From positions 1 to 26,875 of the IMG/VR virus record IMGVR_UViG_3300036980_000506: 26,875 nucleotides of DNA. One strand, written 5' to 3'. Source of the DNA: a virus. This document shows, piece by piece, positions 3-22,641 of the stretch (its first letter is position 1; every line of letters starts with the position of its first letter). The notes under the pieces were generated by a model. That model was not told the DNA's origin. It saw only the letters and a list, made by a program, of their open reading frames with translations, and did no database searches. The translations under genes and the position numbers were made by a program.

Positions 3-1112
3 GCAGAAGGAAAGCTCATCACCGACGAGGACACCATCAAGTCATTCGGCTGCACCGAGACGCAGTGTTTCGACACGCCCTGGATTGACCCGAAGGATGC
101 GCCCTCGTTTGAGGAAGAGTGCCCGATGCTGGCCAGCTATTTCAAGCGCGTGCTCAGCCCGGGGTACTTGACGGAGTACAACGTCACTGGCCCCGACCCT
201 CGCCGTGCGGTCATGCTGGAAGCCGTGGGCATGGCGCTGCTCGGTCTCGGTACAAAGGTGCGTAAACTTCTGTGTCTTATCGGGGAGCCGGGCACGGGTA
301 AGTCCACCTTCATCGAGGTGCTGACTGAGCTGTTCCCGCCGGGGGTTCGCTGCTCTATTCACCCACAGGACTTCTACGGGTTCCATAAATGGCCGCTCGT
401 TGGCGCGCGTATCAATCTCGTGGACGACGTGAAGAAGGCGCCGATTCAAGAAGACGGCGACCTGAAGATTGCCATTACCGGTGGCATCCTGCCTATCGAA
501 CGCAAGCACCACGATGGGTTCAATATCAATTCCATCGCGGGGCACATCTATGGGTCGAACAATCGAATCAACGTGCGCGGCGGTAGCACGGGCTTGGCCG
601 CGCGTATGATCGAGATCGACTTCAACGCTGATGTCTTGCGGCACACAACCGCAGACATTCAGGACTACTCCAAGAAGACCGTGGCCGCCGAGCGGTACGC
701 AATCATTCGCCACTTCATCTACGCAGCGTTGGACCGTGTGCTCAACCACGAGTACTGTCTGACTGCGCAGCCCGATGCGGCTGAGAAGTTCGCGGAGTTG
801 GCCGCGCCCACAACGCCGGTAGAGTCCTTCTTCGGCACGCTCGTGTTCGATGAGAACGCGCGCCTGACCAGCAACGTAGTGTATGATGCGTTCAAAGCGT
901 TCTGCGAAGCGAACGGTTTCAAGTTCGCGTCCACCAAGCCCTCATTTGACAAGCTGTTCGGCAACTGGCGGCGCATCAAGAACAAGCGCGATTGGACCCA
1001 CAAGAACAGCGCGGGTAACATGGTCTTCCGCCTGTCCCTGGATGGGGCCGCAGCCGAGCCCGTGGAGAAGGAGGGGCAGCTCATCTCCTTCGTCGGGCGG
1101 AAGTCGGGCTAA
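3..1112 (+). CDS. DNA primase-helicase, D5/P4 type, C-terminal part (5' partial)
   Basis: The frame is open to the first base of the window, so the gene starts upstream; 369 codons are visible. It carries the order of motifs of a superfamily 3 helicase: Walker A GEPGTGKST (visible residues 94-102), Walker B INLVDD (137-142), motif B' around AITGGILPIERKHH, motif C/sensor IYGSNN (182-187), and an arginine-finger candidate in GLAARMIEIDF (Arg201). The last ~120 residues resemble the winged-helix tail of poxvirus D5/phage P4 primase-helicases. Proteins of this family form hexameric rings that unwind DNA at the phage origin, and many carry a primase domain in the N-terminal half, which would lie outside this window. 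The last codons and the stop run into an 11-bp tandem repeat array. The helicase call is firm; a primase half is inferred from the family only. Confidence 0.9.
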   Translation, partial: AEGKLITDEDTIKSFGCTETQCFDTPWIDPKDAPSFEEECPMLASYFKRVLSPGYLTEYNVTGPDPRRAVMLEAVGMALLGLGTKVRKLLCLIGEPGTGKSTFIEVLTELFPPGVRCSIHPQDFYGFHKWPLVGARINLVDDVKKAPIQEDGDLKIAITGGILPIERKHHDGFNINSIAGHIYGSNNRINVRGGSTGLAARMIEIDFNADVLRHTTADIQDYSKKTVAAERYAIIRHFIYAALDRVLNHEYCLTAQPDAAEKFAELAAPTTPVESFFGTLVFDENARLTSNVVYDAFKAFCEANGFKFASTKPSFDKLFGNWRRIKNKRDWTHKNSAGNMVFRLSLDGAAAEPVEKEGQLISFVGRKSG

Positions 1113-1378: not shown

Positions 1379-1537
1379 ATGGATACCGCCGAGACCTGCT
1401 CCGTCAGCATGACCCTCTACATCACGCCCACTCAGGAAGCGCAGCTCGCGGCACTCGCGAAGAAGGACAAGCGCAGCAAAGCCTTCATCATTCGTGCGGC
1501 TCTCGATGCCTACCTCGCTAACCTTGAGGTCAAGTAA
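1379..1537 (+). CDS. Small ribbon-helix-helix (Arc/CopG-like) DNA-binding protein, 52 aa
   Basis: A 52-codon reading frame starts at ATG 1379 behind a good ribosome site (AGGAG, 5 nt upstream). The protein has the ribbon-helix-helix layout: a short strand (SVSMTLYIT, residues 8-16), helix A (PTQEAQLAALAKKD), a turn with KRSKAFIIR, then helix B (AALDAYLANLEVK). Proteins of this fold dimerise and insert the paired strands in the major groove, usually as repressors. The gene ends in GAGGTCAAGTAA, a sequence repeated exactly at the end of the next gene. Role in this phage is unknown; a regulator of the early region is the simplest reading. Confidence 0.75.
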   Translation: MDTAETCSVSMTLYITPTQEAQLAALAKKDKRSKAFIIRAALDAYLANLEVK

Positions 1538-2036
1538 TCCAATGAGGACAAAGCGCAGTGGTGTGTATTCACTGGTGATCGGCCCCTACTTCTATGTCGG
1601 GTCTACGACAGACTTGGACCAACGAGTGTTCTCTCATCGCTGCGAACTACGCGCAGGCCGGCATTCCCCAAAGCTTCAGCGCGCGTGGTACGAGTACCAA
1701 TCAGCAGAGCTGCATGTTCTCGTGGAGTGCTCGAAGGAAGAGTTACTCGTGAACGAGCAGATCGCTATCGACTGGGTGTTCGCCACGGAGTTCTGCTTAA
1801 ACACCGGACGTTGTGCAGAGAATCCAAACCGGGGGCGTAAGTTGTCGGCCGAACGCTGCGCGCAGATAGGTGAAGCTCGGCGCGGAAAGAAGCACACGCC
1901 CGAGAGCATAGCCAAGATGGCGTCAGCAAAGCTCGGTCGCCCCCGTTCACTCGAAACACGAGCCAAGATAAGTGCATCGCTTAAACGTCGCTACGCTCAA
2001 CAGAGCAATGTACTCAACACCTGCGAGGTCAAGTAA
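1526..2036 (+). mobile_element. Homing-endonuclease insertion flanked by a 12-bp direct repeat
   Basis: GAGGTCAAGTAA occurs at 1526-1537 (end of the ribbon-helix-helix gene) and again at 2025-2036 (end of the endonuclease gene). Each copy is followed within a few bases by ATGAG, the start of the next gene. The repeat holds a GAGG Shine-Dalgarno element and a stop codon, so after insertion both downstream genes keep a ribosome site and a clean stop. Deleting one repeat copy plus the intervening 499 bp joins the ribbon-helix-helix gene directly to the Cys4 gene. The interpretation as insertion is inference from this arrangement. Confidence 0.6.
1542..2036 (+). CDS. Free-standing GIY-YIG homing endonuclease with NUMOD3 repeats
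   Basis: The 164-aa protein has an N-terminal GIY-YIG nuclease domain: GVY (residues 7-9), YVG (18-20), a catalytic-type arginine in DLDQR (Arg28) and a metal-binding glutamate in LLVNEQ (Glu72), at spacings like I-TevI. Residues 97-149 are three successive NUMOD3-like DNA-binding units (RGRKLSAERCAQI, RGKKHTPESIAKM, LGRPRSLETRAKI). Such enzymes nick or cut a specific target and spread their own gene by recombination. ATG 1542 is chosen because it directly precedes the GIY-YIG core and has GAGG 12 nt upstream; an in-frame ATG at 1494 would overlap the previous gene. No intron boundary is visible, so it looks free-standing rather than intron-encoded. Confidence 0.88.
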   Translation: MRTKRSGVYSLVIGPYFYVGSTTDLDQRVFSHRCELRAGRHSPKLQRAWYEYQSAELHVLVECSKEELLVNEQIAIDWVFATEFCLNTGRCAENPNRGRKLSAERCAQIGEARRGKKHTPESIAKMASAKLGRPRSLETRAKISASLKRRYAQQSNVLNTCEVK

Positions 2037-2037
2037 C

Positions 2038-2241
2038 ATGAGCACGGGCATTCAACACCACATCGACCCAGTCCAGCCCGATGCTCCAGCCCCGTTGTCA
2101 AGCATCGACAACCTTCGCGTCCAGGTCGCCCAGCTTCTCGTGGCAGTTCAAGACCTGAAGGAGCTGACCCTGTACGACTGCGAAGGCTGCAAGCGTCCCA
2201 GGTATAAGTGTGTTTGCTCCGCTGCCATCAAGAAAGGATAG
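2038..2241 (+). CDS. Small Cys4 (probable zinc-binding) protein, 67 aa
   Basis: The start is ATG 2038, one base after the endonuclease stop, with GAGG in the repeated element serving as ribosome site (9 nt spacing). Residues 20-45 are predicted helical (SSIDNLRVQVAQLLVAVQDL). The tail holds Cys48, Cys51, Cys58 and Cys60 in the pattern C-x2-C-x6-C-x-C, which is a plausible zinc knuckle, followed by a basic end (AAIKKG). The frame extends upstream in the endonuclease gene to an ATG at 1972, but that start has no ribosome site. The family is not recognised. Its place between two DNA-binding-type genes suggests a regulatory or nucleic-acid role, but nothing in the sequence proves it. Confidence 0.65.
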   Translation: MSTGIQHHIDPVQPDAPAPLSSIDNLRVQVAQLLVAVQDLKELTLYDCEGCKRPRYKCVCSAAIKKG

Positions 2242-2245
2242 CCCC

Positions 2246-2455
2246 ATGTCCATCGCTACCATGAAGCTCACCATCGACATTGACATCGAGCTGCACCGGC
2301 AGCTCAAGGCCCACTGCGCCGCCACCGGGGTCAGCCTCAAGGACTTCGTGACCGAGGGCGCCATCGCCCGCCTGCGGATGCAGGGCCAGTCGGTGTCGCG
2401 CGAAGTGGTGGAAAGAAGTGTGGGTGCCGTTGACAGCACCTCCTCATCGCGGTAA
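2246..2455 (+). CDS. Ribbon-helix-helix DNA-binding protein, 69 aa
   Basis: The start is ATG 2246, 5 nt after the previous stop, with AAAGGA upstream. The alternating strand MKLTIDIDIELHR (residues 6-18) is followed by helix LKAHCAATG, a turn, and helix VSLKDFVTEGAIARLRMQ, the usual layout of the MetJ/Arc/CopG fold. The strand residues that would contact DNA are Lys, Thr, Asp and Asp. The last ~18 residues are Ser-rich and probably disordered. This is the second ribbon-helix-helix gene in the same early operon; the two are not obvious duplicates because their helices differ. It probably represses or organises early transcription (inference). Confidence 0.7.
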   Translation: MSIATMKLTIDIDIELHRQLKAHCAATGVSLKDFVTEGAIARLRMQGQSVSREVVERSVGAVDSTSSSR

Positions 2456-3250: not shown

Positions 3251-3283
3251 CCAGCGTTACTCCAGTGTTACTCCAGTGTTACT
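3251..3283. repeat. Three 11-bp tandem repeats
   Basis: Three head-to-tail copies of CCAGTGTTACT begin at 3251, 3262 and 3273; the first has one change (C for T). The last copy overlaps the stop codon of the minus-strand gene ending at 3279. This is a second 11-bp-period repeat in the window, unrelated in sequence to the 1091-1167 array. Confidence 0.75.
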
Positions 3284-3560
3284 GTAGTTGACCAACCATC
3301 GGGTGCTGCTTGACTCCAGACAGCTTCAAGCTCATGCACTTGCTGTCACCGTATTCAATACGACACGCAGTCTGGAGCTTGACGTGGACTTCGCGCAGGT
3401 CAGCGATGATTGGCGTTACATCCACCGGAGGGCGGGCGGCGAGCGGCGCCGGGGGCTTTGCGACTGAGCCCTCATCGACCGTAGCTTCAGGCGCAGTAGG
3501 CTCTCCAGCAATGGGCGTAAAGCCGCAGAGAAGAAGGCACACAAGGCACGCGCGGGTCAT
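3279..3560 (-). CDS. Small exported protein, o-spanin candidate
   Basis: The 93-aa protein begins with a short basic end and a hydrophobic run (MTRACLVCLLLCGFTPIAG), which reads as a signal sequence. A Pro/Ala-rich stretch follows (EPTAPEATVDEGSVAKPPAP), then a C-terminal part with two cysteines (QTACRIEYGDSKC). Its start codon overlaps the stop of the upstream gene as TGATG, so translation is probably coupled. A small Pro-rich exported protein coupled to a one-TM coiled-coil protein is the layout of Rz/Rz1-type spanins. Against this, no canonical lipobox is present: the Cys8 and Cys12 contexts (CLVC, LLLC) lack the usual small residue at -1. The call therefore stays tentative. Confidence 0.5.
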   Translation of the reverse strand: MTRACLVCLLLCGFTPIAGEPTAPEATVDEGSVAKPPAPLAARPPVDVTPIIADLREVHVKLQTACRIEYGDSKCMSLKLSGVKQHPMVGQLQ

Positions 3561-3880
3561 CAGTTGCTCCGAGAGAGTTGCAGGTTGAGTAACCGATCCA
3601 CGCTGCGAGTGGTATTAGAAAGTTCCGTTGCCAGAGCAGGAAGCTGTTGGACTGCGTCCTCCGTCTTCCTTATCCGTTCTTCTTGAACAATGAGTGCAGA
3701 CTCAGCTCGGTCAAGTCGGACGATGAGTGCCGTGTTGGTCTGGACCTGGGTGTACCACGCCGTCAGCGTACCCACCACAGTCGCGGTCAGAAGCGCCGGA
3801 ACGGTAATGCCGATGTAGTCGCGGCCCCGCTCGCGGATGGTCTGAAGCGCGCTGGTCAGTTGGGGAATGGGCTCGGCCAT
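3560..3880 (-). CDS. Membrane-anchored coiled-coil protein, i-spanin or holin-like candidate
   Basis: The 106-aa protein starts at ATG 3880 (GGGAG 4 nt upstream). A longer GTG-started frame to 3964 has no ribosome site. The basic segment QTIRERGRDY precedes one membrane span, about residues 22-42 (IGITVPALLTATVVGTLTAW), implying N-in topology. The rest is a heptad-rich coil rich in Glu, Arg and Leu. This topology fits an i-spanin (inner-membrane subunit of the complex that disrupts the outer membrane at lysis), and the next gene, coupled by TGATG, would be its partner. Alternatives are a one-TM holin or a virion membrane protein. It lies at the very end of the late block, a common place for lysis genes. 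Confidence 0.55.
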   Translation of the reverse strand: MAEPIPQLTSALQTIRERGRDYIGITVPALLTATVVGTLTAWYTQVQTNTALIVRLDRAESALIVQEERIRKTEDAVQQLPALATELSNTTRSVDRLLNLQLSRSN

Positions 3881-3930
3881 AGGAACTCCCGAGAAAAGGG
3901 GACGAACAGACGCTAACCCATTCGCCCCCC

Positions 3931-3959
3931 ATCCTACCTCTTGGAGACTAAACCGGCAA
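3931..3959 (-). promoter_or_regulatory. Weak promoter candidate before the spanin-like pair
   Basis: Read on the minus strand, TTGCCG (3954-3959) and TAGGAT (3931-3936) are 17 bp apart in the 101-bp gap upstream of the gene starting at 3880. The -35 matches 3 of 6 consensus positions and the -10 matches 4 of 6, so chance is a serious alternative. Confidence 0.25.
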
Positions 3960-3981
3960 GTCACCGACTATCGCCATTCCC

Positions 3982-4353
3982 TTAGACCGCGCTCACATCC
4001 CAGTAAGCGACGACCAGGGTATCGCCAGTGGTGTTCGTACCAGCGGCGTTGTTGATCGTAGCCGCGGCAGTGATCGTGAACTCGCTGGTCAGCGTGCTCA
4101 GGTTGATGTTCGCGGCGGTCGCATCACGGTCAAGGCGCAACACGCAGATGAGCTTGTCAGCGGTGGCGATGCCAGTCACAGTCACGTCACCGGCAGCCGC
4201 TCCGGCAGCAGTCGTGATCACGAGGGCGCCGGCAACCATGTGACTGCCGCCCACGATAGAGAGCGCCAGCTTGGCAGCAGTGATGGCGAGGGCGCCGAGC
4301 TTACCAGAAGTGACCACACCATCACGAATGTCAGAGTTCTTGACCCAGGCCAT
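3982..4353 (-). CDS. Small probable virion structural protein, 123 aa
   Basis: The start is ATG 4353 with AAAGGA 8 nt upstream; a longer frame to 4398 lacks a ribosome site. The N-terminus (MAWVKNSDIRDGVVTSGKL) continues as an Ala/Leu-rich helix (GALAITAAKLALSIVGG). The rest is Thr/Ala/Val-rich alternating strand (ALVITTAAGAAAGDVTVTG, ending TLVVAYWDVSAV). The composition, low in charge and rich in Ala, Thr and Val, is typical of phage fibre or decoration proteins, and phrases like GKLGALAITAAKLA are common in minor structural proteins. It follows the large ejection-type gene after a 110-bp gap. No catalytic motif is visible. Confidence 0.6.
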   Translation of the reverse strand: MAWVKNSDIRDGVVTSGKLGALAITAAKLALSIVGGSHMVAGALVITTAAGAAAGDVTVTGIATADKLICVLRLDRDATAANINLSTLTSEFTITAAATINNAAGTNTTGDTLVVAYWDVSAV

Positions 4354-4383
4354 GGGGCACATCCTTTTGCGTTGTTGCAGCGA

Positions 4384-4431
4384 AGGGCGCTGCTTCACGA
4401 TGGACTAAGAGTGGGAGAGCAACAGCGCCCT
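4384..4431 (-). promoter_or_regulatory. 9-bp inverted repeat in the 4354-4463 gap
   Basis: AGGGCGCTG (4384-4392) pairs perfectly with CAGCGCCCT (4423-4431) around a 30-nt loop. It sits between the 1468-aa gene and the 123-aa gene. There is no U-tract, so it is not a standard terminator; an RNA processing or stabilising hairpin is possible. Confidence 0.4.
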
Positions 4432-4463: not shown

Positions 4464-7400
4464 TCATCGAGCCATCGCGTCCAGCTCGCGCTTGATTTCC
4501 TTCTGCCGGGCCCCCAGCGCCTCGACCTCGCTCTTGATCTTGATCGGAGACACGATGCCCGTTCCGAGCAACACGGGGTTCTCGCCCTCAAACCGCTTCA
4601 GGTCTGCACCAGGAACCGGGGGCAGCAACGCGGAGTAGTCGTCAATCGCACGCTGAAGTGCAACATAGGTAAGGCCGAGAAGTACAGCCTTGTAGCGGAG
4701 ATAGCCCCCGCTCGTCCTGAAGCGGAACTGTTGACCCGCGAACTCGGGCTCACCAGCGGTGCGCATCTCAGCCGGCACCGGCTCAACATCGAACGTCTCG
4801 CGGAACGCATCCCACTCGCCGATGGTCATCACAGCGTTGACATGCTTGGGCGGCACACGATGGAATCCAGCGGCATCCGTGCGCGCCGACTCCATCAGGA
4901 CTTCCTTGCCGAAGTCAATCGTGGGACTGACGCGTGTGTCATCCAACATGTCGCCCAAGTCGCGCACCTGCTTACCATCCGCGAGCAGGTAGTTCGTGAC
5001 GTTCGCGATGGTCTGGAGCGAGGAGAACGCGGGAATCTCCGGGCCGAACACGGGCGACTTAGACAGCGTGTCGTAGTCTTCGCGGTCCATTCCGTACAGC
5101 CGCGTCAGCGCGTACCCGGGCGCGTACTCAAGCTGGTCCGCAATCTCCAGCTCCAGCGCCTTCTGAATCATGAGCTGTTGCTTCAACTTCGACGGCGCGG
5201 TCACCGCAGTCTTAGCGACCTCCAGCAGCGAGGAGCGCCACCATCCGTAGAACATCATGGTCTTGGCCACGTACTCGCGCTCGATAGGTTTGATGCGCCC
5301 GTAGTCAAACAGCGAAGCGCGGGCCAGCTCGGCGGCTTGCTCTGGAGTCGAGCCCTTCACGCGCGCCGTGACGTACACAGACTGACGCCAGGTATTGTCG
5401 TTCAGGTCCGCCGCGATGGAGTAGATGTTCTTGTTGGTCGGGTCCAGATAGCGTGTGATGGTCCGCAGCCGCCCCGCGTTCTTACCAGAGTCCAGCGTCT
5501 TCGACACCCGTTGCAAGTCATTCAGGAACTGGTTGCTGAACTCGAAGCCGGCCTGCGAAAGCGTGATGTTCGCCTTCGCCATCTCTTCATCGAGCATCTT
5601 GTAGGTGACCGGATCACCAGCCATGTCCTTGAACGCTACCTCGAACGGCGTCTTGCCGAGCTTCGCGGCGCCCCAGTTAATGAGTTGGCGGCCCACGTCC
5701 GGAATCGCCTGCATCGCGAACGGCAGGTTAATCGTGGTGCCAATCACCAGCGGGGCAGTCGCCGCGTTGTTGAAGTGGAACTTCATGTTCGGCAGGAACC
5801 CACCGCCCAGCATGCCGCCAATCGTACCGCGCCGGGCAGTGTCTACGACGTGCCCGAGCGTGCGACCAACCTGCTCCAGTCCCTCGGCATCCTTAATCCG
5901 AAGAGACTCAAGTGCCTTGTCGATGTTACCAGCGGCAGTCGAGGAGTCGAGTGCCTTCATCGCGTCGGCGAAGTCTTGCCCGTACAACGCGACCCAGCCG
6001 CCGCCGATGTCCTTAGACTTCGGGATGCCATTGATGAAGTCTACACCCTTCATCTCGGGAGGGAATCCATTCCTATACAGCGCCTGCGTTACAGACTCGT
6101 CGAACATGAGTCGGTAGTTCTCAACCCAAGTATCCGAAGTCTTGGCGGGAAGCAGCGCCTTCATCTCGTCAAAGGTCAGCGCGCCCTTGCCAACGCCCTC
6201 TCGAAGCTGCTTCTCGACAGACGCGCGTACGATGTCCTGGTAGTTGCGCGGCTCCAGGCCGAACGCACCACCGGAGTAGCCCCCCTGGAATCCCCAGTAG
6301 CGCACCCCCGCGGACACAATCGCGCCGTCCGCCACGTCCTGCATGTGCGCGATAACCTCGCCGGCCGCAGCGGCGCGCTTCTCCTTGACCAGCGTAACGA
6401 TCATCGTCTTCGCGATAGCATCACCGCCCTTAATCGGATTGCGCAGTCCCTTACCCGCCAAGTCGGCCGAGCCCTTGCGCAGTATGTCAATCATCTCGGT
6501 CAAGCCAGTAGACGACGGAGCCTGACTCAGTCGCGAAGCAATGACCAGTCGCTCCTCAGTCGTGAGCGCGCGACCGAAGAAGGTGTGAAGCATCTCCTCA
6601 TTGACACGCGGAAAATTGCGCTGACCATTCGCCGCGCGAACGACGAGGTTATTCAAAGCCTGTTCCGCATCACGAGTGACCTTCAGCTCAGCCGTCATGT
6701 CCGACTTGACCGTGTCAACCACGTTGGCGTATCGGCCTTGAAGGTCAATCAGTCCGGACTCAATCGCGAGCGGAGTCTTCGCCTTGACGACAGACTTGTC
6801 CCGTCGCATCTCAGACAGGGCGTTACCTACATCATCCATCCATGTGCGCCTCTCAACCGGAGTGCGCGCCATCGCAGACGCCGGGCCTTTGTAAAGGACT
6901 TCCACCGCACCGCCTGCCACCTTGTTCGCTTCGGCAAGCGCGGCCTGCCCAATGAGGTAATCCTTTAGCAGCGCGTACTCCCGCGCGTTACCCTCTGCGG
7001 CGAAGCTACGAACAAACATGCCCTCGTCATCAGTAGCCTTGATTATCTCTTCGACACGGCTGACCCACACCGGGCGTGATGCTTCGTTCTTGGGTAGCAT
7101 CGCCAGGACTTCGTCAGCGTTCTTGAGCGTGCCGTCAGGATTGCGCGCGAGCAGCGTCTGCACACGGCGGGCTACGTCCGCCTTGATGCCAACCCATTCC
7201 TTATTCGAGATAGCAACGTCGGAGTTGATGAAGCGCAAGTCGCCGGGCGCCGCGTCGGCAACGCTCTGTTCAACGACCTTGCGCACACCGGCTGCGTCGT
7301 CAACCTTGGCCGCCGCTTGAACCGTAGGATGAAGCGACTTCTCAAACTCAGCCAGTCCTTCACCACGCGCAACGACAGCCTTCGAAGTCGCCGTGTGAAC

Positions 7401-8870
7401 CGGAACCTCGCCCGCCCGAACCGCACGAAGGGCCGCCGCCGTGTCCACCACCTCCTGCTGAATGAGGCGGCCAGCCAGGGCGCCGGCCTGCCGGTCGGTG
7501 CGCGCCGCGCCCACCAGCGCCTCCCTGGGCAGCTCCAGGCCCTGGGCCAGCCGGACGGCCTCACGCTCAGCCAGCCCCCGGGAGACGGCAGCCAGGGGGT
7601 CGGCGATGGAGGCCCCGACCTTGGCGACCTTGGGCGCCCCGGCGAGGTCGGCCGCCAGCTCGACGCCCTTGCCCACGAGCTTGAGCCCCTTGCCCACGGG
7701 CGGCAGGACAGGAATCATGAACTCAGCACCGAGCCCCACGACTTTAGGCACGTTGGGGAAGCCGAGCTTCGTCCAGGCGGCCTGATATTCCGGCATGTCG
7801 GAGAAGTCGTCGCCGAGTGTTCGGCCCTCCCGCATGTCACGCGCGATGTCTCCAGTCATAGTCCCGGTGCTGGGACGTGCCTTGATGCCTTGGAACGCAC
7901 GGGGGCCGAGTCCAATAGCAGAAGGCATCCAATCTGGAAGCGTCGAGGCGACCTTGTACGCCGGATCTGCGGGGTCCAGAGGCGCCCCACTTTCGTCAAC
8001 TTCGTACGTCAACGCCTTCACAACTGGCGTGGTCATCGTACGGGAGAGCGCACCGAGGTCGCGCAGCGCAGTCGCGATGGGCGTCTCATAGAGCTGGTTG
8101 CTCGCGTCCTTGTTCTCCTCCTGAGTGGCGCCCTTCCACCAATGGCCGAGAGGGTCAGTCATTCCAGGCGACACCTGTTCAGCAAACGCCTTCCACTTCG
8201 CGTCACCAGCCGGGCCATCCTCGAAGCGCGACCGCAGCTCGGTGACCTTCGCGACTCGCGCCTGAAGTACCTGCATCTCGGACGGCTCAGCGACTCCCTT
8301 CGCCTGAAGCTCGCCCTTGACGATCGCGTCAAGCTTGGCTTGAGCCTCCTTGGCGCGGGCATCCGCCTGTCGTCGGGCTTCCACGTCGGCAGCCTTCTCC
8401 AGCGGCTGCGGCTTGAGCGCGTCCACGATGGCGCCTACTCCAGTCGTGCGCTGAACATCCGGAACGCCAGCGATGCGCCGCCCTTCAACGTCAGTCGGGC
8501 GCGTCGAGAGGTTCGTGACCTTGTCCTGCGCCTTGCGCAGCGCGGCGGCTTTGTCTTCGCCAAGGCCCAGATAGAACGCCGTGTCCTTCTCGATAGCCTT
8601 GCTACGCGAAGTGCTCATGTCCGTAGACGAAGGGTATTCGGGGCGCACAGTTTCAGCAGCGCCAACTCCAGTCACACCAATCGACGGCGCGACAACCGGC
8701 GCGCTGACGTTCAACCCCTTCTGCTTGTTGCTCGCGGCGTAGGCAGCGCGGCGCGACTCGATGTACGCGGGCTTCTGACCGTTGGCCTTGAACACCTCCA
8801 GGTTGGAGCGCTGCGCTTCGGTCAGCTCATCGTCGGAGACAGCGGTGGGGGCGGGGTTCACGTCGGCCAA
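4464..8870 (-). CDS. 1468-aa internal virion/DNA-ejection protein candidate (T7 gp16-like position)
   Basis: The start is TTG 8870, with GAGG 6 nt upstream and an in-frame stop six codons before it. The next in-frame ATG is about 84 codons further in. The protein is helix-rich with long charged stretches (residues ~155-215), a hydrophobic Gly-rich part (~375-425, VVGLGAEFMIPVLPPVGKGL) and an amphipathic middle with GGMLGGGFLPNMKFHFNNAA. The C-terminal third is dense in Tyr and Trp. It is the last of three helix-rich proteins (219, 568 and 1468 aa) in the same order as T7 gp14, gp15 and gp16 (196, 747 and 1318 aa). In T7 these leave the head and form a DNA channel across the envelope. No lytic transglycosylase motif is visible at the N-terminus, unlike T7 gp16. 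A large polyvalent-type protein is the alternative. Confidence 0.6.
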   Translation of the reverse strand: MADVNPAPTAVSDDELTEAQRSNLEVFKANGQKPAYIESRRAAYAASNKQKGLNVSAPVVAPSIGVTGVGAAETVRPEYPSSTDMSTSRSKAIEKDTAFYLGLGEDKAAALRKAQDKVTNLSTRPTDVEGRRIAGVPDVQRTTGVGAIVDALKPQPLEKAADVEARRQADARAKEAQAKLDAIVKGELQAKGVAEPSEMQVLQARVAKVTELRSRFEDGPAGDAKWKAFAEQVSPGMTDPLGHWWKGATQEENKDASNQLYETPIATALRDLGALSRTMTTPVVKALTYEVDESGAPLDPADPAYKVASTLPDWMPSAIGLGPRAFQGIKARPSTGTMTGDIARDMREGRTLGDDFSDMPEYQAAWTKLGFPNVPKVVGLGAEFMIPVLPPVGKGLKLVGKGVELAADLAGAPKVAKVGASIADPLAAVSRGLAEREAVRLAQGLELPREALVGAARTDRQAGALAGRLIQQEVVDTAAALRAVRAGEVPVHTATSKAVVARGEGLAEFEKSLHPTVQAAAKVDDAAGVRKVVEQSVADAAPGDLRFINSDVAISNKEWVGIKADVARRVQTLLARNPDGTLKNADEVLAMLPKNEASRPVWVSRVEEIIKATDDEGMFVRSFAAEGNAREYALLKDYLIGQAALAEANKVAGGAVEVLYKGPASAMARTPVERRTWMDDVGNALSEMRRDKSVVKAKTPLAIESGLIDLQGRYANVVDTVKSDMTAELKVTRDAEQALNNLVVRAANGQRNFPRVNEEMLHTFFGRALTTEERLVIASRLSQAPSSTGLTEMIDILRKGSADLAGKGLRNPIKGGDAIAKTMIVTLVKEKRAAAAGEVIAHMQDVADGAIVSAGVRYWGFQGGYSGGAFGLEPRNYQDIVRASVEKQLREGVGKGALTFDEMKALLPAKTSDTWVENYRLMFDESVTQALYRNGFPPEMKGVDFINGIPKSKDIGGGWVALYGQDFADAMKALDSSTAAGNIDKALESLRIKDAEGLEQVGRTLGHVVDTARRGTIGGMLGGGFLPNMKFHFNNAATAPLVIGTTINLPFAMQAIPDVGRQLINWGAAKLGKTPFEVAFKDMAGDPVTYKMLDEEMAKANITLSQAGFEFSNQFLNDLQRVSKTLDSGKNAGRLRTITRYLDPTNKNIYSIAADLNDNTWRQSVYVTARVKGSTPEQAAELARASLFDYGRIKPIEREYVAKTMMFYGWWRSSLLEVAKTAVTAPSKLKQQLMIQKALELEIADQLEYAPGYALTRLYGMDREDYDTLSKSPVFGPEIPAFSSLQTIANVTNYLLADGKQVRDLGDMLDDTRVSPTIDFGKEVLMESARTDAAGFHRVPPKHVNAVMTIGEWDAFRETFDVEPVPAEMRTAGEPEFAGQQFRFRTSGGYLRYKAVLLGLTYVALQRAIDDYSALLPPVPGADLKRFEGENPVLLGTGIVSPIKIKSEVEALGARQKEIKRELDAMAR

Positions 8871-8916
8871 GGTACACCTCGAAGGTCAAGCTATCACGAG
8901 GAGGAAAGGCTGACCA

Positions 8917-8951
8917 CGGCAGGCGGTGAACCCCAGCGAACCCGCCTGCCG
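8917..8951 (-). promoter_or_regulatory. 10-bp perfect inverted repeat between amidase and gp16-like gene
   Basis: CGGCAGGCGG (8917-8926) pairs perfectly with CCGCCTGCCG (8942-8951) around a 15-nt loop, directly after the amidase stop. On the minus strand no U-tract follows at once; a pyrimidine run (CCTTTCCTCCTC) comes about 10 nt later. It may be a weak terminator or a processing hairpin that sets the ratio of upstream to downstream products. Confidence 0.5.
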
Positions 8952-8962
8952 CGGCAGCCAAA

Positions 8963-9388
8963 CTATGCTCGAAGTGCCAGGTCTGCGCGCAACTTCTTCA
9001 AGTCGAAACGATCGCCTGGACAGGCCGTAGATGCGCCTTCCGCTTCACGATGTCCGAATACCTGCGAGGCCGGGATGCCGTACCTACGCATCAAGGCGCC
9101 GACGACATCCAACAGCTCCTCATACACGGGCGCCTTCATGTCCGCCACGCTGTAGTTGCCGGCAACGCAGACGCCCAACGAGTTCGTGTTGTGCCCCTGG
9201 GTATGCGCGCCAACCTCAGTCTCGCGGCGGCCCTCGTGAGTGACCACGACGCCGCCTTTGAGATTGATGACCTTGTGGTAGCCGATGGTGCGGAAGCCCC
9301 GCGCGACGTGCCAGCGCGTAATCTCCTCGACTGAGGTTGACTCCGCGCTGGCCGAGTGGTGGATGTAGATCGCAGCGGGCTTGTTCAT
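8963..9388 (-). CDS. N-acetylmuramoyl-L-alanine amidase (PGRP/amidase_2, T7 lysozyme type)
   Basis: The enzyme cleaves the bond between muramic acid and the stem peptide of peptidoglycan, using Zn2+. Numbered from ATG 9388, the core IYIHHSAS (His10/His11), GYHKVI (Tyr37, His38), VGAHTQGHNTNSLGVCVAG and FGHREAEGASTACPGD (His113, Cys123) match the T7 lysozyme/PGRP fold. Zinc ligands are expected to be His10, His113 and Cys123. At 141 aa it is a bare catalytic domain with no cell-wall-binding or signal region. ATG 9388 is chosen because ATG 9400 sits directly on its GAGGT element with no spacing; both are possible. It lies three to fifteen bases after the glycine-rich gene and just before the gp16-like gene, so it may be a virion lysin, the lysis endolysin, or both. 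Confidence 0.9.
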   Translation of the reverse strand: MNKPAAIYIHHSASAESTSVEEITRWHVARGFRTIGYHKVINLKGGVVVTHEGRRETEVGAHTQGHNTNSLGVCVAGNYSVADMKAPVYEELLDVVGALMRRYGIPASQVFGHREAEGASTACPGDRFDLKKLRADLALRA

Positions 9389-9403
9389 GGCTTTCCCCAT
9401 ACC

Positions 9404-10453
9404 TCAGAGATTGCTAACGATAGCAGTACCCGCCGCGCCGTTGGTACCCGCAGTGCCGCCGTTAGCCGCAGCGCCGCCAGTCCCACCGAGCACGTTGGTA
9501 GTGACGGTGCCAGTCAGCGCGCGATAGACGACCCACACCTTGCCGCCCACGCCGCCGTTCCCGCCGCCACCAGTGAGCGCCCCGATGAAGGCCGCATCAC
9601 CACCATTCCCGCCCGCAGCGGTCAGGGTGGGCGACCCAACGATGGTGTCGAAGGCGCAGAGCACAGACCCCGCACCGCCCCCGCCGCCGCCGCCAGCGCC
9701 GACCGTGGTGCCAGTTGCGGTGCCCGTGCCGCCCACGCCGCCGTTCGCCACGAAGGACGCGGAGCCCGTGCAGACAAGGCTCTTGGCCCGGACAGAGGTG
9801 ATTCCAGCCCCGCCGCCGCCGCCGCCCGAGGCGCCCGAGCCCAGGGTGACTAAGAGAGCGGCACCCGCGCCGCCCCCGCCGCCCGCGATGCCCGCGTGGT
9901 TGTTAACGGGGAGCTGCATCCGCCACAGCTCGAACATCAGGCGAAGGCTGCCCTTCGTCGCGTCCCAGAGGGTGAGCGCCGACGCGTTACCTCCAGCGTT
10001 CGCACCGCCAGCTCCACCAGCGCCGGACTGCCCACCGAGACAGTTCGTGTTGGTCACGCCCGTACTGGCAGAAACACCAGTGTTGCTCGTCGTGCGGCCT
10101 GCCGCGCCCGCAATGCCCGGGTTGAACCGCGACGAAGACGATGTGGGCGAAGCCGCGCCGGCCGTGTTGACCGAAGCCGCGCCGCCGTTCGAGCTAAGCC
10201 GGGCTGTACCATTCATCGTCAGCGTGCCACTGACGAAGATAGGATTACCCGCCGGGTTGACCGTAATCCCAGTGGAGATGGTGCAGTCAGTCCACTGGTA
10301 CTCCTGCGTAGTCGTCGCGGTGTAGGTGGTACTGTTCAGCGTGAAGCCAGTGACCGCGCCGACGCCGTCGAAGACAGCCGCGCCATCCGACCCGTCGCCG
10401 AAGTACAGCGACAGGATAGCAGCGGCAGCCGTGGCAGAGAGGATAGAGCCCAT
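9404..10453 (-). CDS. Glycine-rich fibre/adhesin candidate, 349 aa
   Basis: The start is ATG 10453 after AAGAGGTG. Residues 1-85 are a beta-rich head (FTLNSTTYTATTTQEYQWTD). Residues ~140-345 hold at least seven Gly-rich blocks, for example GGGGGAGA (191-198), GGGGGGAG (210-217), GAGGGGGGGAG (252-262), GGNGGD (281-286) and GGGGNGGVGG (295-304). Between them lie strand-like segments (ITSVRAKSLVC, KVWVVYRALTG). This spacing fits either a polyglycine-II sandwich, as in the S16-type gp38 adhesin tip, or a Gly-lined right-handed beta-helix. The protein has two cysteines in the strand parts. It probably contacts the host receptor (inference). Poly-Gly codons make the DNA here a near-continuous run of GGC/GGT-type triplets. 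Confidence 0.65.
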   Translation of the reverse strand: MGSILSATAAAAILSLYFGDGSDGAAVFDGVGAVTGFTLNSTTYTATTTQEYQWTDCTISTGITVNPAGNPIFVSGTLTMNGTARLSSNGGAASVNTAGAASPTSSSSRFNPGIAGAAGRTTSNTGVSASTGVTNTNCLGGQSGAGGAGGANAGGNASALTLWDATKGSLRLMFELWRMQLPVNNHAGIAGGGGGAGAALLVTLGSGASGGGGGGAGITSVRAKSLVCTGSASFVANGGVGGTGTATGTTVGAGGGGGGGAGSVLCAFDTIVGSPTLTAAGGNGGDAAFIGALTGGGGNGGVGGKVWVVYRALTGTVTTNVLGGTGGAAANGGTAGTNGAAGTAIVSNL

Positions 10454-10463
10454 GGTTCACCTC

Positions 10464-10931
10464 TTACTTGACGACGTGGAGACGAACGAGGCCAATGGTA
10501 TCAACGGTCGCGGAGTTGGTCTTCACGCCGATGTAGAGCTTGCGCGTGTTCGTCTCAGTCCCGTTGACCGTGACGCTCGACACGCCCGCGCGCACGTTCA
10601 GTTCGAACAGGCAGCCCGCCGTGGTTCCAGACGGCCCAACCGTCACGACCTTGGAGGCCGCCGACAGCGCCGGGTCAACGACGGGGTACGAAGGAGCGCC
10701 AGCCGCGAAGCCCTCGAAGATGCCGATGATAACCGTGGGCGCAACGCTGGTGAGCGCCACGAACATGAGGTCGAGCTGGGCGAGCGAACACTCGCGCGGC
10801 ACGTTGTCGATGAGGAAGTAGACGTAGCCGCTGTTGTCCACGTTGGACGGCGCGGCGACAGAGACGGCAGTGGTCCCGTCGGCCTTGAACGCGGCGACGA
10901 TGCACTGGTGCCATTGAACAGAAGAAGCCAT
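10464..10931 (-). CDS. Small beta-rich virion protein, 155 aa
   Basis: The start is ATG 10931 (AGGA 7 nt upstream), rather than the frame start at 10946, which lacks a ribosome site. The sequence alternates hydrophobic and polar residues throughout (CIVAAFKADGTTAVSVAAP, TVIIGIFEGFAAG, KLYIGVKTNSATVDTIGLV), so it is probably a beta-sandwich. There is no signal peptide or catalytic motif. It lies 10 bp before the glycine-rich gene, with which it is probably co-translated, and 38 bp after the gp15-like gene. A fibre base or a fibre-associated cap is a reasonable guess, but the family is not recognised. Confidence 0.6.
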   Translation of the reverse strand: MASSVQWHQCIVAAFKADGTTAVSVAAPSNVDNSGYVYFLIDNVPRECSLAQLDLMFVALTSVAPTVIIGIFEGFAAGAPSYPVVDPALSAASKVVTVGPSGTTAGCLFELNVRAGVSSVTVNGTETNTRKLYIGVKTNSATVDTIGLVRLHVVK

Positions 10932-10969
10932 GATGAAGTCCTGCAATGAGAGGTTAAGGCACCAGTGGG

Positions 10970-12676
10970 TTACAAAGGGCCGTACTGGTCGAGAGTCTTG
11001 ATAGTGCGCGAGTTGCCCTTGTCGCGGGCCTTCAGAAGAAAGAGCTTCAACTTATCGCGCTTGGTCATGGGAGCGAGGGGCTTATCGTCCACGCCCGCTG
11101 CGATATCGTCCATAGTCTCCTCAGACACGGGAGCCTCAGCGACAGGCGCGATAGGTCCACGGGCTCGCGCCTTCTCGTTCTCCGTCTGTCCGCCCATCAT
11201 CTCGTTCGGCGTTGGGGGCGGAGTCGGCGTGCGCGACTCCGGTGACTTGATGGCGGCCTGCGCCGTCTGGTCCTTGGCGAGCTTCTTCTTCATGTAGTTG
11301 AGGACGATCGTGTTCAGCTTCTCGGGGTCGTCGCCCGCCGCTTCCTTCGCCTTCGCGACAAGCTGCTGTGGAGTGAGCGTGCCCTTCGATGTGTCGAACA
11401 GCATGTACCCGACGTTGCGGTCAGCCGGGTCAATCGTGATGCCCTTCTTCGCCAGCGCCTGCGCGTCTTTCCAGTTGAGTGCGAACACAGACGCGTTCTG
11501 CGCCGCGACCTTGTCCGCGTAGTTACCAGGGCCCACGGAAGGAATCACCGGAGCAACCGTGTCGCGCAGAGACTGACGAATGCCGCCCTTTCCGTAGATG
11601 GGCTCGTACTGCTTGTTTGCTTCGCGGAGGATGTCCATCTGAGTAGCGCGACGGGGAGCCGCCGCCTCCTCGCTCTGCATCTGCGCGCGCACTTCCTCGA
11701 CGCGCTTGCTGGTGGCACCAGAGATGGCGGGGTCATTCAGCTCGCTGCGGAACAGGTCCATGTTGGACAGGATAGTTCCGCGATGCTTCATGAAAGCTTC
11801 GGCGCCAGCGTCAGCCATCAGCTCGTCTTCGGTCATCGCCGACAGCCGCCGGTACTCGGGCGTCAGGACGTAAGCCTTCGCCTCAAGCACAGACTTCTCA
11901 ATCGCATCAACGCGCGCCTTGGTCGCCGTGCTGAGTGCGACCTGCTCATCGGCAGTCTTCTTGATGGCACCAATGCCACCACCGTAAGCCTTCTGCTCAA
12001 TGAGGTCAGCCTCAGCCGCGTACTGCTGTGCCACGTTCTCGCGTGTGAGCGTGTCCGCGTCCCAGCCCTTCATGGCGAGCGCGTCATTCGCGACACCGGG
12101 CTTGATGCCGCTGTTGATGAGCTGGTCGCGGAACGTGACCGCTTGGTCCTGCTGCGCCAGTGAACTGCCGGCGCGAAGCTTCGATGTGATGCCGAGCGCA
12201 TCCATCTGGTCGGCAATGACCTTGGCCTGTGCGCCGTCGTCGTTCTGGCTCAGAATCACCGGGTCGCGCCCGATGGTGCCCGCCGCAGTTCCGGACGCCG
12301 CGACAACCGTGGCATTGGCGCGCAGCTCCTTGAGCGCCATGTCCTTAGCCTTCAGCAGTCGCGCAGCATTGGCGCCCCGAGCGTCGGCCTCTCGGCCCTG
12401 GGTGACGCTCTGCTCCTTCATGCTGCTCTGGTAAGCACGGCGGGCTTCGGTCAGGTCGCCGGGCTGGATACGAGCAGTCGCGGCACGAGACTTCGCAGTC
12501 TGCGCCTCAAGCGTCTTGATCAAGTCCGCGTCAGCTTTGGCCTTGGCCTTCTGGCGCGCGATTTCGTTGTCGTAGTCCGCATCAGCCTCAGCGTGAACAC
12601 GCGCTACAATCTCGGCCCACTTGTCGGCCTGGAGTTCTGCGTACGTCTTGTAGACGGTTTCACCATTGGTCGGCAT
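10970..12676 (-). CDS. Internal virion protein candidate, 568 aa (T7 gp15-like position)
   Basis: The start is ATG 12676 with a strong GGAGGA 8 nt upstream; it overlaps the end of the previous gene by 17 bp. The protein is almost entirely helical and highly charged. Residues 13-75 form a continuous coil (AELQADKWAEIVARVHAEAD, then KAKADADLIKTLEAQTAKSR). Further Ala/Glu/Lys helices run to ~340, and a Pro/Thr-rich tail (PESRTPTPPPTPNEMMGG) lies at about 485-502. There is no membrane span or enzyme motif. Its place directly after the 219-aa gene and before the 1468-aa gene, plus its composition, is the basis for proposing the middle ejection protein. Without a profile search this remains positional. 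Confidence 0.55.
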   Translation of the reverse strand: MPTNGETVYKTYAELQADKWAEIVARVHAEADADYDNEIARQKAKAKADADLIKTLEAQTAKSRAATARIQPGDLTEARRAYQSSMKEQSVTQGREADARGANAARLLKAKDMALKELRANATVVAASGTAAGTIGRDPVILSQNDDGAQAKVIADQMDALGITSKLRAGSSLAQQDQAVTFRDQLINSGIKPGVANDALAMKGWDADTLTRENVAQQYAAEADLIEQKAYGGGIGAIKKTADEQVALSTATKARVDAIEKSVLEAKAYVLTPEYRRLSAMTEDELMADAGAEAFMKHRGTILSNMDLFRSELNDPAISGATSKRVEEVRAQMQSEEAAAPRRATQMDILREANKQYEPIYGKGGIRQSLRDTVAPVIPSVGPGNYADKVAAQNASVFALNWKDAQALAKKGITIDPADRNVGYMLFDTSKGTLTPQQLVAKAKEAAGDDPEKLNTIVLNYMKKKLAKDQTAQAAIKSPESRTPTPPPTPNEMMGGQTENEKARARGPIAPVAEAPVSEETMDDIAAGVDDKPLAPMTKRDKLKLFLLKARDKGNSRTIKTLDQYGPL

Positions 12677-13319
12677 GGTACTGGTCCTCCATGCCCATCA
12701 AGGCGCGGGCATCGTCGTCAGTGAAAGAGCGTCCATAAGCAGATTCGAGAGAAGTCTTGCGCCCCGTGAACTCGTCCATGGCGACAGCGTTCTGCTCGCG
12801 CTTCTGGATGACCGAAGGGCCGATTGCCTTCCCGACGCCCGCCGCCGTCGCGAGCCCAGCCGTGGCGAGGTTGACCCAGGCCGCCCGCTTGGCGTTCTTC
12901 GCGGCCTGCTTCTGCGCGTCGAGCTGGAGCAGCATGTCTCGGTTCGTGGCTTCTCGCGTCACGTCCGCTTCGTTGATAGCCTGCCCAACACCGAGCCGCC
13001 GCTCAGCCCGGCGCGAGAGGTCGCCCTGGAATGCCTTCGCCCCAGCGCCCGCGCCCGCGTCGTCAATGGTCATACCGGCGCTGAACCGTGCGTTTTGCTC
13101 GCGCTCCTGAGCGGCAAGCGGTGCGCTCAAGCGGTTCTCCATGACCGAGCGTTCCTTCTCGCTCAGTCCCAGCTCGCCCTGCTTCTTCCGCTTGCGCAGC
13201 TCCTCAAGCAGTTGCTCCTGGGCCGGGGAAAGACGGGCGCTTCGCGCGGCATTAAATCCGCTCGCGACGTTGCCGACGCCCTTTGCCACTTCGCCGATGA
13301 TCGACAACGCTGGAACCAT
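12660..13319 (-). CDS. Internal virion protein candidate, 219 aa (T7 gp14-like position)
   Basis: ATG 13319 is preferred, with GGGGGT 5 nt upstream; an in-frame TTG at 13331 is the alternative. The N-terminus (MVPALSIIGEVAKGVGNVAS) is a short amphipathic or membrane-seeking helix. A charged coil follows (QEQLLEELRKRKKQGELGLS). Near residues 147-167 lies a second Gly/Ala-rich hydrophobic segment (AAWVNLATAGLATAAGVGKA) that could insert in a membrane. T7 gp14 is of similar size (196 aa) and is the ejection protein that enters the outer membrane. The C-terminus overlaps the next gene by 17 bp. The assignment rests on size, order and hydrophobic pattern. Confidence 0.55.
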   Translation of the reverse strand: MVPALSIIGEVAKGVGNVASGFNAARSARLSPAQEQLLEELRKRKKQGELGLSEKERSVMENRLSAPLAAQEREQNARFSAGMTIDDAGAGAGAKAFQGDLSRRAERRLGVGQAINEADVTREATNRDMLLQLDAQKQAAKNAKRAAWVNLATAGLATAAGVGKAIGPSVIQKREQNAVAMDEFTGRKTSLESAYGRSFTDDDARALMGMEDQYHADQW

Positions 13320-13348
13320 GGGAACCCCCAAAGAAGACTATCACAAGG

Positions 13349-18978: not shown

Positions 18979-19030
18979 GGCGTTCTCCGCAGGTTAAGCG
19001 CGGCTGACCTGGCACAGTCTACCCTATCAC

Positions 19031-19068
19031 GAAACGAAGAAGGGGGCCACCCTTTCGAGCAGCCCCCT
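19031..19068 (-). terminator. Terminator after the capsid cement gene (GNRA-capped stem)
   Basis: Read on the minus strand, AGGGGGC TGCTC GAAA GGGTG GCCCCCT forms a continuous 12-bp stem (two or three wobbles in the upper part) closed by a GAAA tetraloop. TCTTCGTTTC follows. It lies in the gap between the cement gene and the adaptor gene. T7 has its main late terminator in the matching place, just after the capsid gene. A leaky terminator here would let capsid and cement be made in excess over tail proteins. Confidence 0.7.
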
Positions 19069-19088
19069 CCCATTGGAGCGCCTATGGC

Positions 19089-19544: not shown

Positions 19545-19596
19545 GTTGTCACCTGAAGTTGAAGTAGACGTAGATGAAGAAGAACAGCGGCCGAGA

Positions 19597-19635
19597 GGCT
19601 GGGGTCAGGACCAGAAGGCTACCCTGACCCCAGCC
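19597..19635 (-). promoter_or_regulatory. 13-bp perfect hairpin between capsid and cement genes
   Basis: GGCTGGGGTCAGG (19597-19609) pairs perfectly with 19623-19635 around a 13-nt loop, starting 8 bp after the capsid stop. On the minus strand a moderately U-rich stretch (TGTTCTTCTTC) begins about 10 nt after the stem. It could be a partial terminator, an RNase III processing site or a 3' stabiliser for capsid mRNA. Confidence 0.65.
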
Positions 19636-19642
19636 GAAGTCA

Positions 19643-20650: not shown

Positions 20651-20679
20651 GATGGAAAACCCTCTGAGTGAATACAACG

Positions 20680-20704
20680 CGCAGCAACTACCGTAGTCGC
20701 CGCA
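20680..20704 (-). promoter_or_regulatory. Hairpin in the capsid mRNA leader
   Basis: On the minus strand an 11-bp stem (several G-U pairs) closes a CGG triloop, 30 nt before the capsid start codon. The G-U pairs become A-C mismatches on the other strand, so the fold favours the capsid mRNA. A 5' stabilising hairpin on an abundant transcript is a reasonable role. Confidence 0.5.
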
Positions 20705-20767
20705 AAGAGAACCGTGCTGTCCAGTCCTCGGGGTTGTTCACGAAGGAGTCCACCGGGGCCTGTGTGT

Positions 20768-20796
20768 AGGATACCTCACTGGCTATCGGCAGTCAA
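20768..20796 (-). promoter_or_regulatory. Sigma70-like promoter for the capsid gene
   Basis: Read on the minus strand, TTGACT (20791-20796, 5 of 6 consensus positions) and TATCCT (20768-20773, 4 of 6) are exactly 17 bp apart. It lies in the 185-bp gap between scaffold and capsid genes. Transcription would start near 20760, giving a leader of roughly 110 nt. A terminator-like hairpin lies just upstream, so the capsid unit looks independently driven. Confidence 0.6.
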
Positions 20797-20822
20797 CGAG
20801 AGGGGCAAAGATTCTTCGCCCC
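20791..20822 (-). terminator. Terminator-like hairpin after the scaffold gene
   Basis: On the minus strand GGGGCGAAG-AAT-CTTTGCCCC forms a 9-bp stem (one G-U pair) with a triloop at 20802-20822, followed by TCTCGTTGACT, a weak U-tract. It lies 13 bp after the scaffold stop and its tail overlaps the -35 of the capsid promoter candidate, so upstream read-through and new initiation may be separated here. Confidence 0.45.
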
Positions 20823-20835
20823 ACTCGGGCGACCG

Positions 20836-21714: not shown

Positions 21715-22227
21715 TCACCTCTGGCTGGGACGGTTGAGCATCAACGACTTCAGTCTATCACGCGGCGAAGACTCCGGCGCGTTGGGCATCGGCGCCTCGC
21801 GCTCGGGCATCGGCGCCGGCCCGGTGCCACCATCGGCAGGCGCGGGACTCTTCAGGTGCATGCGCACTTCGGGGTCAGACAGGAACGCCTCGACCATGCC
21901 CGCGAACAGGACGAGGTCCGGGTCCTGGCGCGCGTCGTCCAGCTCGTCGGTGATGGCTTCGCGCCCAAGGTCGGCGGCGACGGCGTCAAGCATGAGCAGG
22001 AACTTCATGGCTTCGACAGGGATAGTGCCAGGTTTGGTCGCGAGCGGAATGGCCCGAGCCTTGGCGCCGAACAGCGCGGTGCCCGAGTTGAGCGAATCGA
22101 GCAGCGCGTTCAGCGCGTCGGCGCCGAACTTGGTGGGCGGCACCGTCTTCATAGCGGCCTCGTCGGCGGCAACCTGCGCGCCACCAATGGCACGCCGCAT
22201 GTCGGGAGAGAGAGGAGAAGGCATCAT
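21715..22227 (-). CDS. Unknown late protein, 170 aa
   Basis: The start is the first ATG of an ATG-ATG pair at 22227 (GAGGTTG upstream), which overlaps the zinc-ribbon stop as ATGA. Residues 1-130 are mostly helical (MRRAIGGAQVAADEAAMKTV, VEAMKFLLMLDAVAADLGRE, PDLVLFAGMVEAFLSDPEVR). The C-terminal 40 residues are Pro-rich and disordered (SPAPADGGTGPAPMPEREAP). The family is not recognised. Lying between portal and scaffold in a tightly coupled chain, it may act in head assembly, but there is no motif to support a function. Confidence 0.65.
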   Translation of the reverse strand: MMPSPLSPDMRRAIGGAQVAADEAAMKTVPPTKFGADALNALLDSLNSGTALFGAKARAIPLATKPGTIPVEAMKFLLMLDAVAADLGREAITDELDDARQDPDLVLFAGMVEAFLSDPEVRMHLKSPAPADGGTGPAPMPEREAPMPNAPESSPRDRLKSLMLNRPSQR

Positions 22228-22619
22228 GGTACAACCTCGTCAAGCGCACTGTGGGTGTTAACATCAAGGATGTCAGTCGTCTGCATCGCCTCGACACAGC
22301 GGTCACTGAACTTGTCGCGCTCAAGCTGCGCGTGCCGCGTCGTGTCCATGTGGTCGCGCGGCAGGTCGGCGAGGGGCACGAGGCCACGCTCGTTGCAGAT
22401 ACGGTCGATGTCCTTCGCGCCGTTGACCATACAGCCAAGGCCCTCATTCCAGACCGCGGCCGAGTCGCCCCAGCGCCCGGGAGTGCGCGCGATTCGGGGC
22501 AACTGACGCTTGGCCTCCCCACCGCAGGCGCACACGACGGTATCCGCAACCACGTCTTTGCCGCGGAACAGCTCCTCGGTTACGTGGCCTTGGGAACAAG
22601 CGAACTCGATAAGGGGCAT
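22224..22619 (-). CDS. Zinc-ribbon protein (FmdB-like N-terminus), 131 aa
   Basis: The start is ATG 22619 with AGGTGA 5 nt upstream; the longer frame starts at GTG 22628. The N-terminus MPLIEFACSQGHVTEELFRG and later VVCACGGEAKRQLPR resemble FmdB-type zinc ribbons. The candidate ligands are Cys8, His12, Cys30 and Cys32, so the usual second cysteine of the first knuckle is replaced by histidine. The remainder is helical and charged (KDIDRICNERGLVPLADLPR, HAQLERDKFSDRCVEAMQ). Small zinc ribbons of this type are common next to terminase and portal genes in phages, where their role is not established. The end overlaps the next start by ATGA. Confidence 0.7.
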   Translation of the reverse strand: MPLIEFACSQGHVTEELFRGKDVVADTVVCACGGEAKRQLPRIARTPGRWGDSAAVWNEGLGCMVNGAKDIDRICNERGLVPLADLPRDHMDTTRHAQLERDKFSDRCVEAMQTTDILDVNTHSALDEVVP

Positions 22620-22641
22620 GAGAGTCACCTACGCTGGGGTT

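Follow-up and report, generated by a model that had tools for sequence, protein, structure and literature searches.

The question raised by this locus is why a zinc amidase gene lies beside the largest gene of a putative phage ejection set, and whether the enzyme would serve DNA entry or lysis. The window, that is, the whole stretch of DNA that was analyzed, is IMG/VR virus record IMGVR_UViG_3300036980_000506 (26,875 bases, classed linear), from an uncultured short-tailed phage. Terminase, portal, coat, and tail genes flank the ejection locus in the usual podovirus order. A preliminary description had named six open reading frames in the locus and regarded them as a T7-type ejection set interrupted by fibre genes and an amidase gene; all six were found in place on the minus strand. 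The features of the locus, from high to low coordinates, are as follows:

12660..13331, minus strand: gp14-like candidate ejection protein, 223 aa from TTG (219 aa from ATG at 13319)
10970..12676, minus strand: gp15-like candidate ejection protein, 568 aa, assigned by position and size, with a low-confidence all-helical model
10464..10946, minus strand: small protein of 160 aa, taken as beta-type on visual inspection
9404..10453, minus strand: Gly-rich fibre/adhesin candidate, 349 aa, matching phrog_13336 (unknown function) at E 1.4e-5
8963..9400, minus strand: Amidase_2 protein, 145 aa, most likely an endolysin (Pfam E 1.9e-16)
8900..8959, minus strand: strong hairpin (-41.6 kcal/mol) in the gap between the amidase and 1468-aa genes, with a pyrimidine-rich stretch after it
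4464..8870, minus strand: gp16-like candidate ejection protein without SLT, 1468 aa, assigned by synteny in relatives and 32% identical to its counterpart in related contig L006
4376..4466, minus strand: second stem-loop (91 nt, -38.7 kcal/mol), following the 1468-aa gene
3982..4398, minus strand: short fibre-like protein, 138 aa, found with the HMM of the relatives' post-gp16 fibre (cluster c1) at E 7e-4 among 29 proteins
3560..3964, minus strand: TM and coiled-coil protein, i-spanin/holin-like, 134 aa, with a hydrophobic segment at residues 51-69
3279..3560, minus strand: small lipoprotein-like protein (LLLC|G), o-spanin-like by sequence, 93 aa, with an N-terminal hydrophobic segment

The 219/223-, 568-, and 1468-aa proteins are helix-rich, and the genes for the 160-, 349-, and 145-aa proteins lie between the second and the third of them. 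Elsewhere in the window, a DUF5906/D5-like primase-helicase gene was found near the start (126-1112, plus strand), which may be cut because its open frame runs to the window edge. A GIY-YIG/NUMOD3 homing-endonuclease-like gene (1494-2036, plus strand) lies near the replication gene, and a small ribbon-helix-helix protein encoded at 2210-2455 (plus strand) matches the ParD antitoxin (E 2.3e-6). Between the portal and head genes there is a gene for a zinc-ribbon protein (22224-22628, minus strand; Zn_ribbon_8, E 3e-4) with relatives in 24 loci.

First, the gene order was compared with that of related phages. Among viral contigs, at least 320 relatives of the tail-hub-like protein g703 were counted, and the g703 of one relative gave weak matches to podoviruses, Roseobacter phage CRP-1 and Cronobacter phage Ss1 among them. 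Searches of cultured phages by tblastn gave no match, either with the 1468-aa, g703, and coat proteins of the window or with the large proteins of its relatives. The family searches covered 31 related virus records and one bacterial record drawn from the g703 relatives, many of them fragments. Gene maps were read for 22 contigs besides the window, and both the gp15-like and gp16-like genes were visible in 19 of these. The data showed that the three helical genes were contiguous in all 19, with the gp15-like gene directly before the gp16-like gene, whose complete copies encode 1514-2330 aa. The usual order after the gp16-like gene was a small beta protein, a fibre, a TM-coiled-coil protein, and then other genes; fibre genes lay downstream of the ejection set or elsewhere, as did the lysin gene in those records that had one. 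The relatives of the 223- and 1468-aa proteins keep the same order in related contigs, and the open reading frames of the window were therefore taken as real genes. Only in the window, among the maps read, were genes present between the second and third ejection genes. Given that the three ejection genes stay together in related phages, this contig is so far alone in showing the interruption.

An order seen on one contig only could also arise if the fibre-amidase block had been misjoined between the 568- and 1468-aa genes during assembly. The sister contig L001 stops inside the 568-aa gene, and the 31- and 30-mers across the junctions were found in no other viral contig. However, both junctions are cleanly intergenic, the GC content varies only from 0.56 to 0.68 across the window, and the block is flanked on either side by the genes one would expect in the phage group, so that we consider an assembly artefact quite improbable. 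The third ejection gene is separated from the others by a displaced fibre-endolysin block, and this rearrangement is unusual within the group.

We analyzed the likeness of the three helix-rich proteins to T7 gp14, gp15, and gp16. In a T7-type set, a gp14-like factor adjoins gp15 and a larger gp16 comes next (PMC8954989); this arrangement was found in 19 relatives, and in the window the order is kept but interrupted by three genes. The likeness held for position, size, and helix content, but not for sequence homology. Profile comparison with the T7 and P22 ejection proteins, which the preliminary description had proposed as a check, detected no homology: HHalign of the three ejection families against single T7, P-SSP7, and P22 sequences gave less than 2% probability in every case, while in the same comparison the g703 profile found CRP-1 gp44 at 97%. 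A search of PDB sequences with the profiles of the three families gave no match. The gp14-like protein did not match Pfam T7_gp14 (PF24072) at E<=1, and T7 gp14, the positive control, matched it at 7.6e-47. As the profiles matched none of the T7, P-SSP7, or P22 proteins, the terms gp14-, gp15-, and gp16-like refer here to order, size, and helix content only.

Within the group, the 223-aa protein is 32% identical to the product of the same-place gene in contig L006, and a family alignment could be made. The 568-aa protein evolves fast (12-16% to same-place genes in relatives); in known phages, too, gp15-like proteins are frequently recognized from size and synteny (PMC8954989). The 568-aa protein and the part of the 1468-aa protein from residue 270 to 1468 were modeled with AlphaFold; both models were mostly helical and of low confidence (pLDDT about 51-52), and a fold search in BFVD with the 568-aa model found nothing at E<=0.001. 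None of the ejection proteins showed a TM segment in a simple hydrophobicity scan, a result that was uninformative because T7 gp14 also scored none. From their position, size, and helix content, we infer that the 223-, 568-, and 1468-aa proteins are the ejection (internal virion) proteins of this phage and would be packaged.

The 1468-aa protein itself gave no noteworthy match in Pfam or PHROG. That it carries no transglycosylase, as the preliminary description had observed, was borne out by the Pfam search, in which no convincing SLT or other wall-hydrolase domain was found in this protein or its 21 homologues and no SLT in any of the 32 virus records (the window and the 31 related ones). T7 gp16, the positive control, gave SLT at 1.7e-31, and SLT was undetected in P-SSP7 gp16 and P22 gp16 in the same search. 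One of the 22 family members searched showed LysM, a binding domain, at 9e-4. The first 270 residues of the 1468-aa protein, which precede the modeled part, contained neither a Pfam hit nor a GLMQ-type motif. The transglycosylase is phage-specific, is absent from P22-like phages, and is sometimes carried on a gp15 homologue (PMC8954989). Its absence here is therefore not unusual and is compatible with an ejection role.

Instead of being a channel protein of the gp16 type, the 1468-aa protein might belong to the large polyvalent proteins and carry other effector domains into the host. The best Foldseek matches of its model were viral proteins, and two of the top three (E 1.6e-15 and 2.5e-9) bear the name "large polyvalent protein associated domain"; late phage genes include those for polyvalent proteins, which are believed to accompany the DNA into the cell (PMC5512222). 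Against this, the model is weak (pLDDT 51), the whole-chain TM-scores were low, no LPD Pfam domain matched in the 22 gp16-like family members, and the named proteins may be uncultured-phage relatives with automatic names. A PDB fold search found nothing at E<=0.001, which carries little weight at this pLDDT. The polyvalent reading is unlikely, and it is compatible with the gp16-type reading that we prefer.

Next to this protein, as the preliminary description had stated, the amidase gene was confirmed. The 145-aa protein matched the PHROG family called amidase at 2.1e-28, and the best solved match of its family profile was T7 lysozyme (gp3.5; 1aro, E 1e-28). Residues H14, H15, Y41, H117, and C127 are invariant in the family, and the protein has the domain, the Zn ligands, and the catalytic Tyr of an Amidase_2 endolysin. 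Other wall hydrolases were not found among the window proteins searched, which leaves the amidase as the only endolysin candidate seen; because the record is a 26.9 kb fragment, another endolysin possibly lies beyond it. Among the 35 contigs with the amidases nearest to that of the window, none had any ejection gene. For the 160-aa protein of the same block, no relative was found among viral contigs; kinship with the relatives' post-gp16 small beta proteins had been suspected from a C-terminal motif, and the HMM match was not significant.

The preliminary description had further proposed a split ejection machine, in which the amidase would be packaged with the three ejection proteins and would open the wall in trans, replacing the transglycosylase of T7 gp16. 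The amidase gene adjoins a gp16-like gene whose product has no SLT, and hydrolase domains do move between ejection proteins, as in K1E, where the wall activity is carried on the gp15 homologue (PMC8954989). However, SLT was absent from relatives with and without a detected amidase alike, and P22-like phages manage without a transglycosylase (PMC8954989).

The distribution of lysins in the relatives also argued against such a machine. Amidase_2 was present in the window and in 9 of the 31 related virus records, phrog_3000 in 13, both together in none, and neither in 9. Because 9 records have neither lysin, and most are fragments, the mutual exclusion rests on 22 relatives; with the record of the window included, the chance of no overlap under independence was 0.0014, a value that ignores kinship and missing ends. 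On the g703 tree the lysin labels intermixed, with at least 4 label changes for the amidase and at least 8 for phrog_3000, counts that are inflated by the records with neither. The lysin gene also varied in position: it lay behind the fibre genes, between the portal and head genes, or, in one record, just before the terminase. In those mapped relatives that carry it, the amidase gene came after the fibre and TM-coiled-coil genes, at a distance of 2.4-3.5 kb downstream from the gp16-like gene. A lysin whose type and place change so freely is unlikely to be tied to gp16 as a fixed partner.

The phrog_3000 protein (for example L089:12121-12696 and L094:1516-2097) also matched a PHROG annotated as endolysin (about 1e-9 to 1e-12), and its H-x14-SxGC pattern is reminiscent of YkuD-type enzymes. 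Its profile had no match among solved structures. It was also found in crAss-like and Pseudoalteromonas phages, where no clear lysis context was seen. This protein, of unknown function in PHROGs, is probably an undescribed lysin. Putative lysin types that replace each other offer a natural route to finding lysins, and phrog_3000 is a good candidate.

The surroundings of the amidase gene were also examined. The hairpin at 8900..8959 was the lowest of about 2440 60-nt windows on the late strand (mean -17.5, sd 5.0), and transcription past the amidase gene may end or weaken there. Strong intergenic hairpins with long stems, terminator-like, were also observed around the coat gene (18979-19088, 19545-19642, and 20678-20835, minus strand). 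Past the second stem-loop, the 134-aa protein had a weak best match to the relatives' TM-coiled-coil cluster c9 (E 0.024), and the 93-aa gene overlaps the preceding gene by 1 nt. With fibre-like and spanin-like genes downstream of it as well, the gp16-like gene lies inside a fibre and lysis block.

Beyond adjacency, then, the split machine found no support: the lysins swap on the tree, a strong hairpin parts the amidase gene from the gp16-like gene, and the closest solved structure is T7 lysozyme, a lysis amidase. It is very improbable that the amidase is packaged to replace the transglycosylase, and there is equally little likelihood that a virion-carried amidase cuts the wall at DNA entry together with the SLT-free gp16-like protein, even if it also acted as endolysin. 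The exchange and varied positions of lysins in relatives, the SLT-free relatives, the T7-lysozyme match, and the hairpin all point to an endolysin. We hold with good confidence that the amidase is the ordinary endolysin of this phage, relocated beside the usual ejection genes. Its lysis role is argued indirectly, from its being the sole endolysin candidate seen, from its replacement by phrog_3000 in relatives, and from the spanin-like pair nearby.

The locus would accordingly represent the virion-ejection, fibre, and lysis part of a late operon. The 223-, 568-, and 1468-aa proteins would exit the head ahead of the DNA and, like their counterparts in T7 and P22, form an envelope-spanning channel. 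The 145-aa zinc amidase would be a late product that breaks open the wall at lysis, together with a holin and the downstream spanin-like pair; its participation in DNA entry need not be assumed. In this lineage the block of beta protein, Gly-rich fibre, and amidase would precede the gp16-like gene instead of following it, which is why the ejection set looks interrupted. The case illustrates how misleading gene neighbourhood can be as a guide to ejection machines, in an uncultured phage group that is common and has a large gp16-like protein without a recognizable wall enzyme.

Four known systems come close. One is the set of uncultured contigs of the g703 group (e.g. G001, G004, and G017), in which the terL, portal, coat, tail, and ejection genes are ordered as in the window; in those contigs, however, the ejection genes are uninterrupted, the fibres lie downstream of the gp16-like gene, and the lysin lies downstream or elsewhere. 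P22 gp7, gp20, and gp16 resemble the window set in being three genes past the tail genes with a large protein without transglycosylase (PMC8954989), but P22 gp16 has 609 aa in comparison with 1468 aa, and the profile match was not significant. With T7 gp14, gp15, and gp16 (196, 747, and 1318 aa), the window shares the order, the rough sizes, the helix richness, and the place after the tail genes, but it differs in having no detectable homology, no SLT, and three genes between the second and third. T7 lysozyme (gp3.5), an N-acetylmuramoyl-L-alanine amidase, is like the amidase of the window in being a single Amidase_2 domain of about 150 aa with conserved Zn ligands. T7 encodes its lysozyme outside its late structural block, whereas the amidase gene of the window sits inside such a block.
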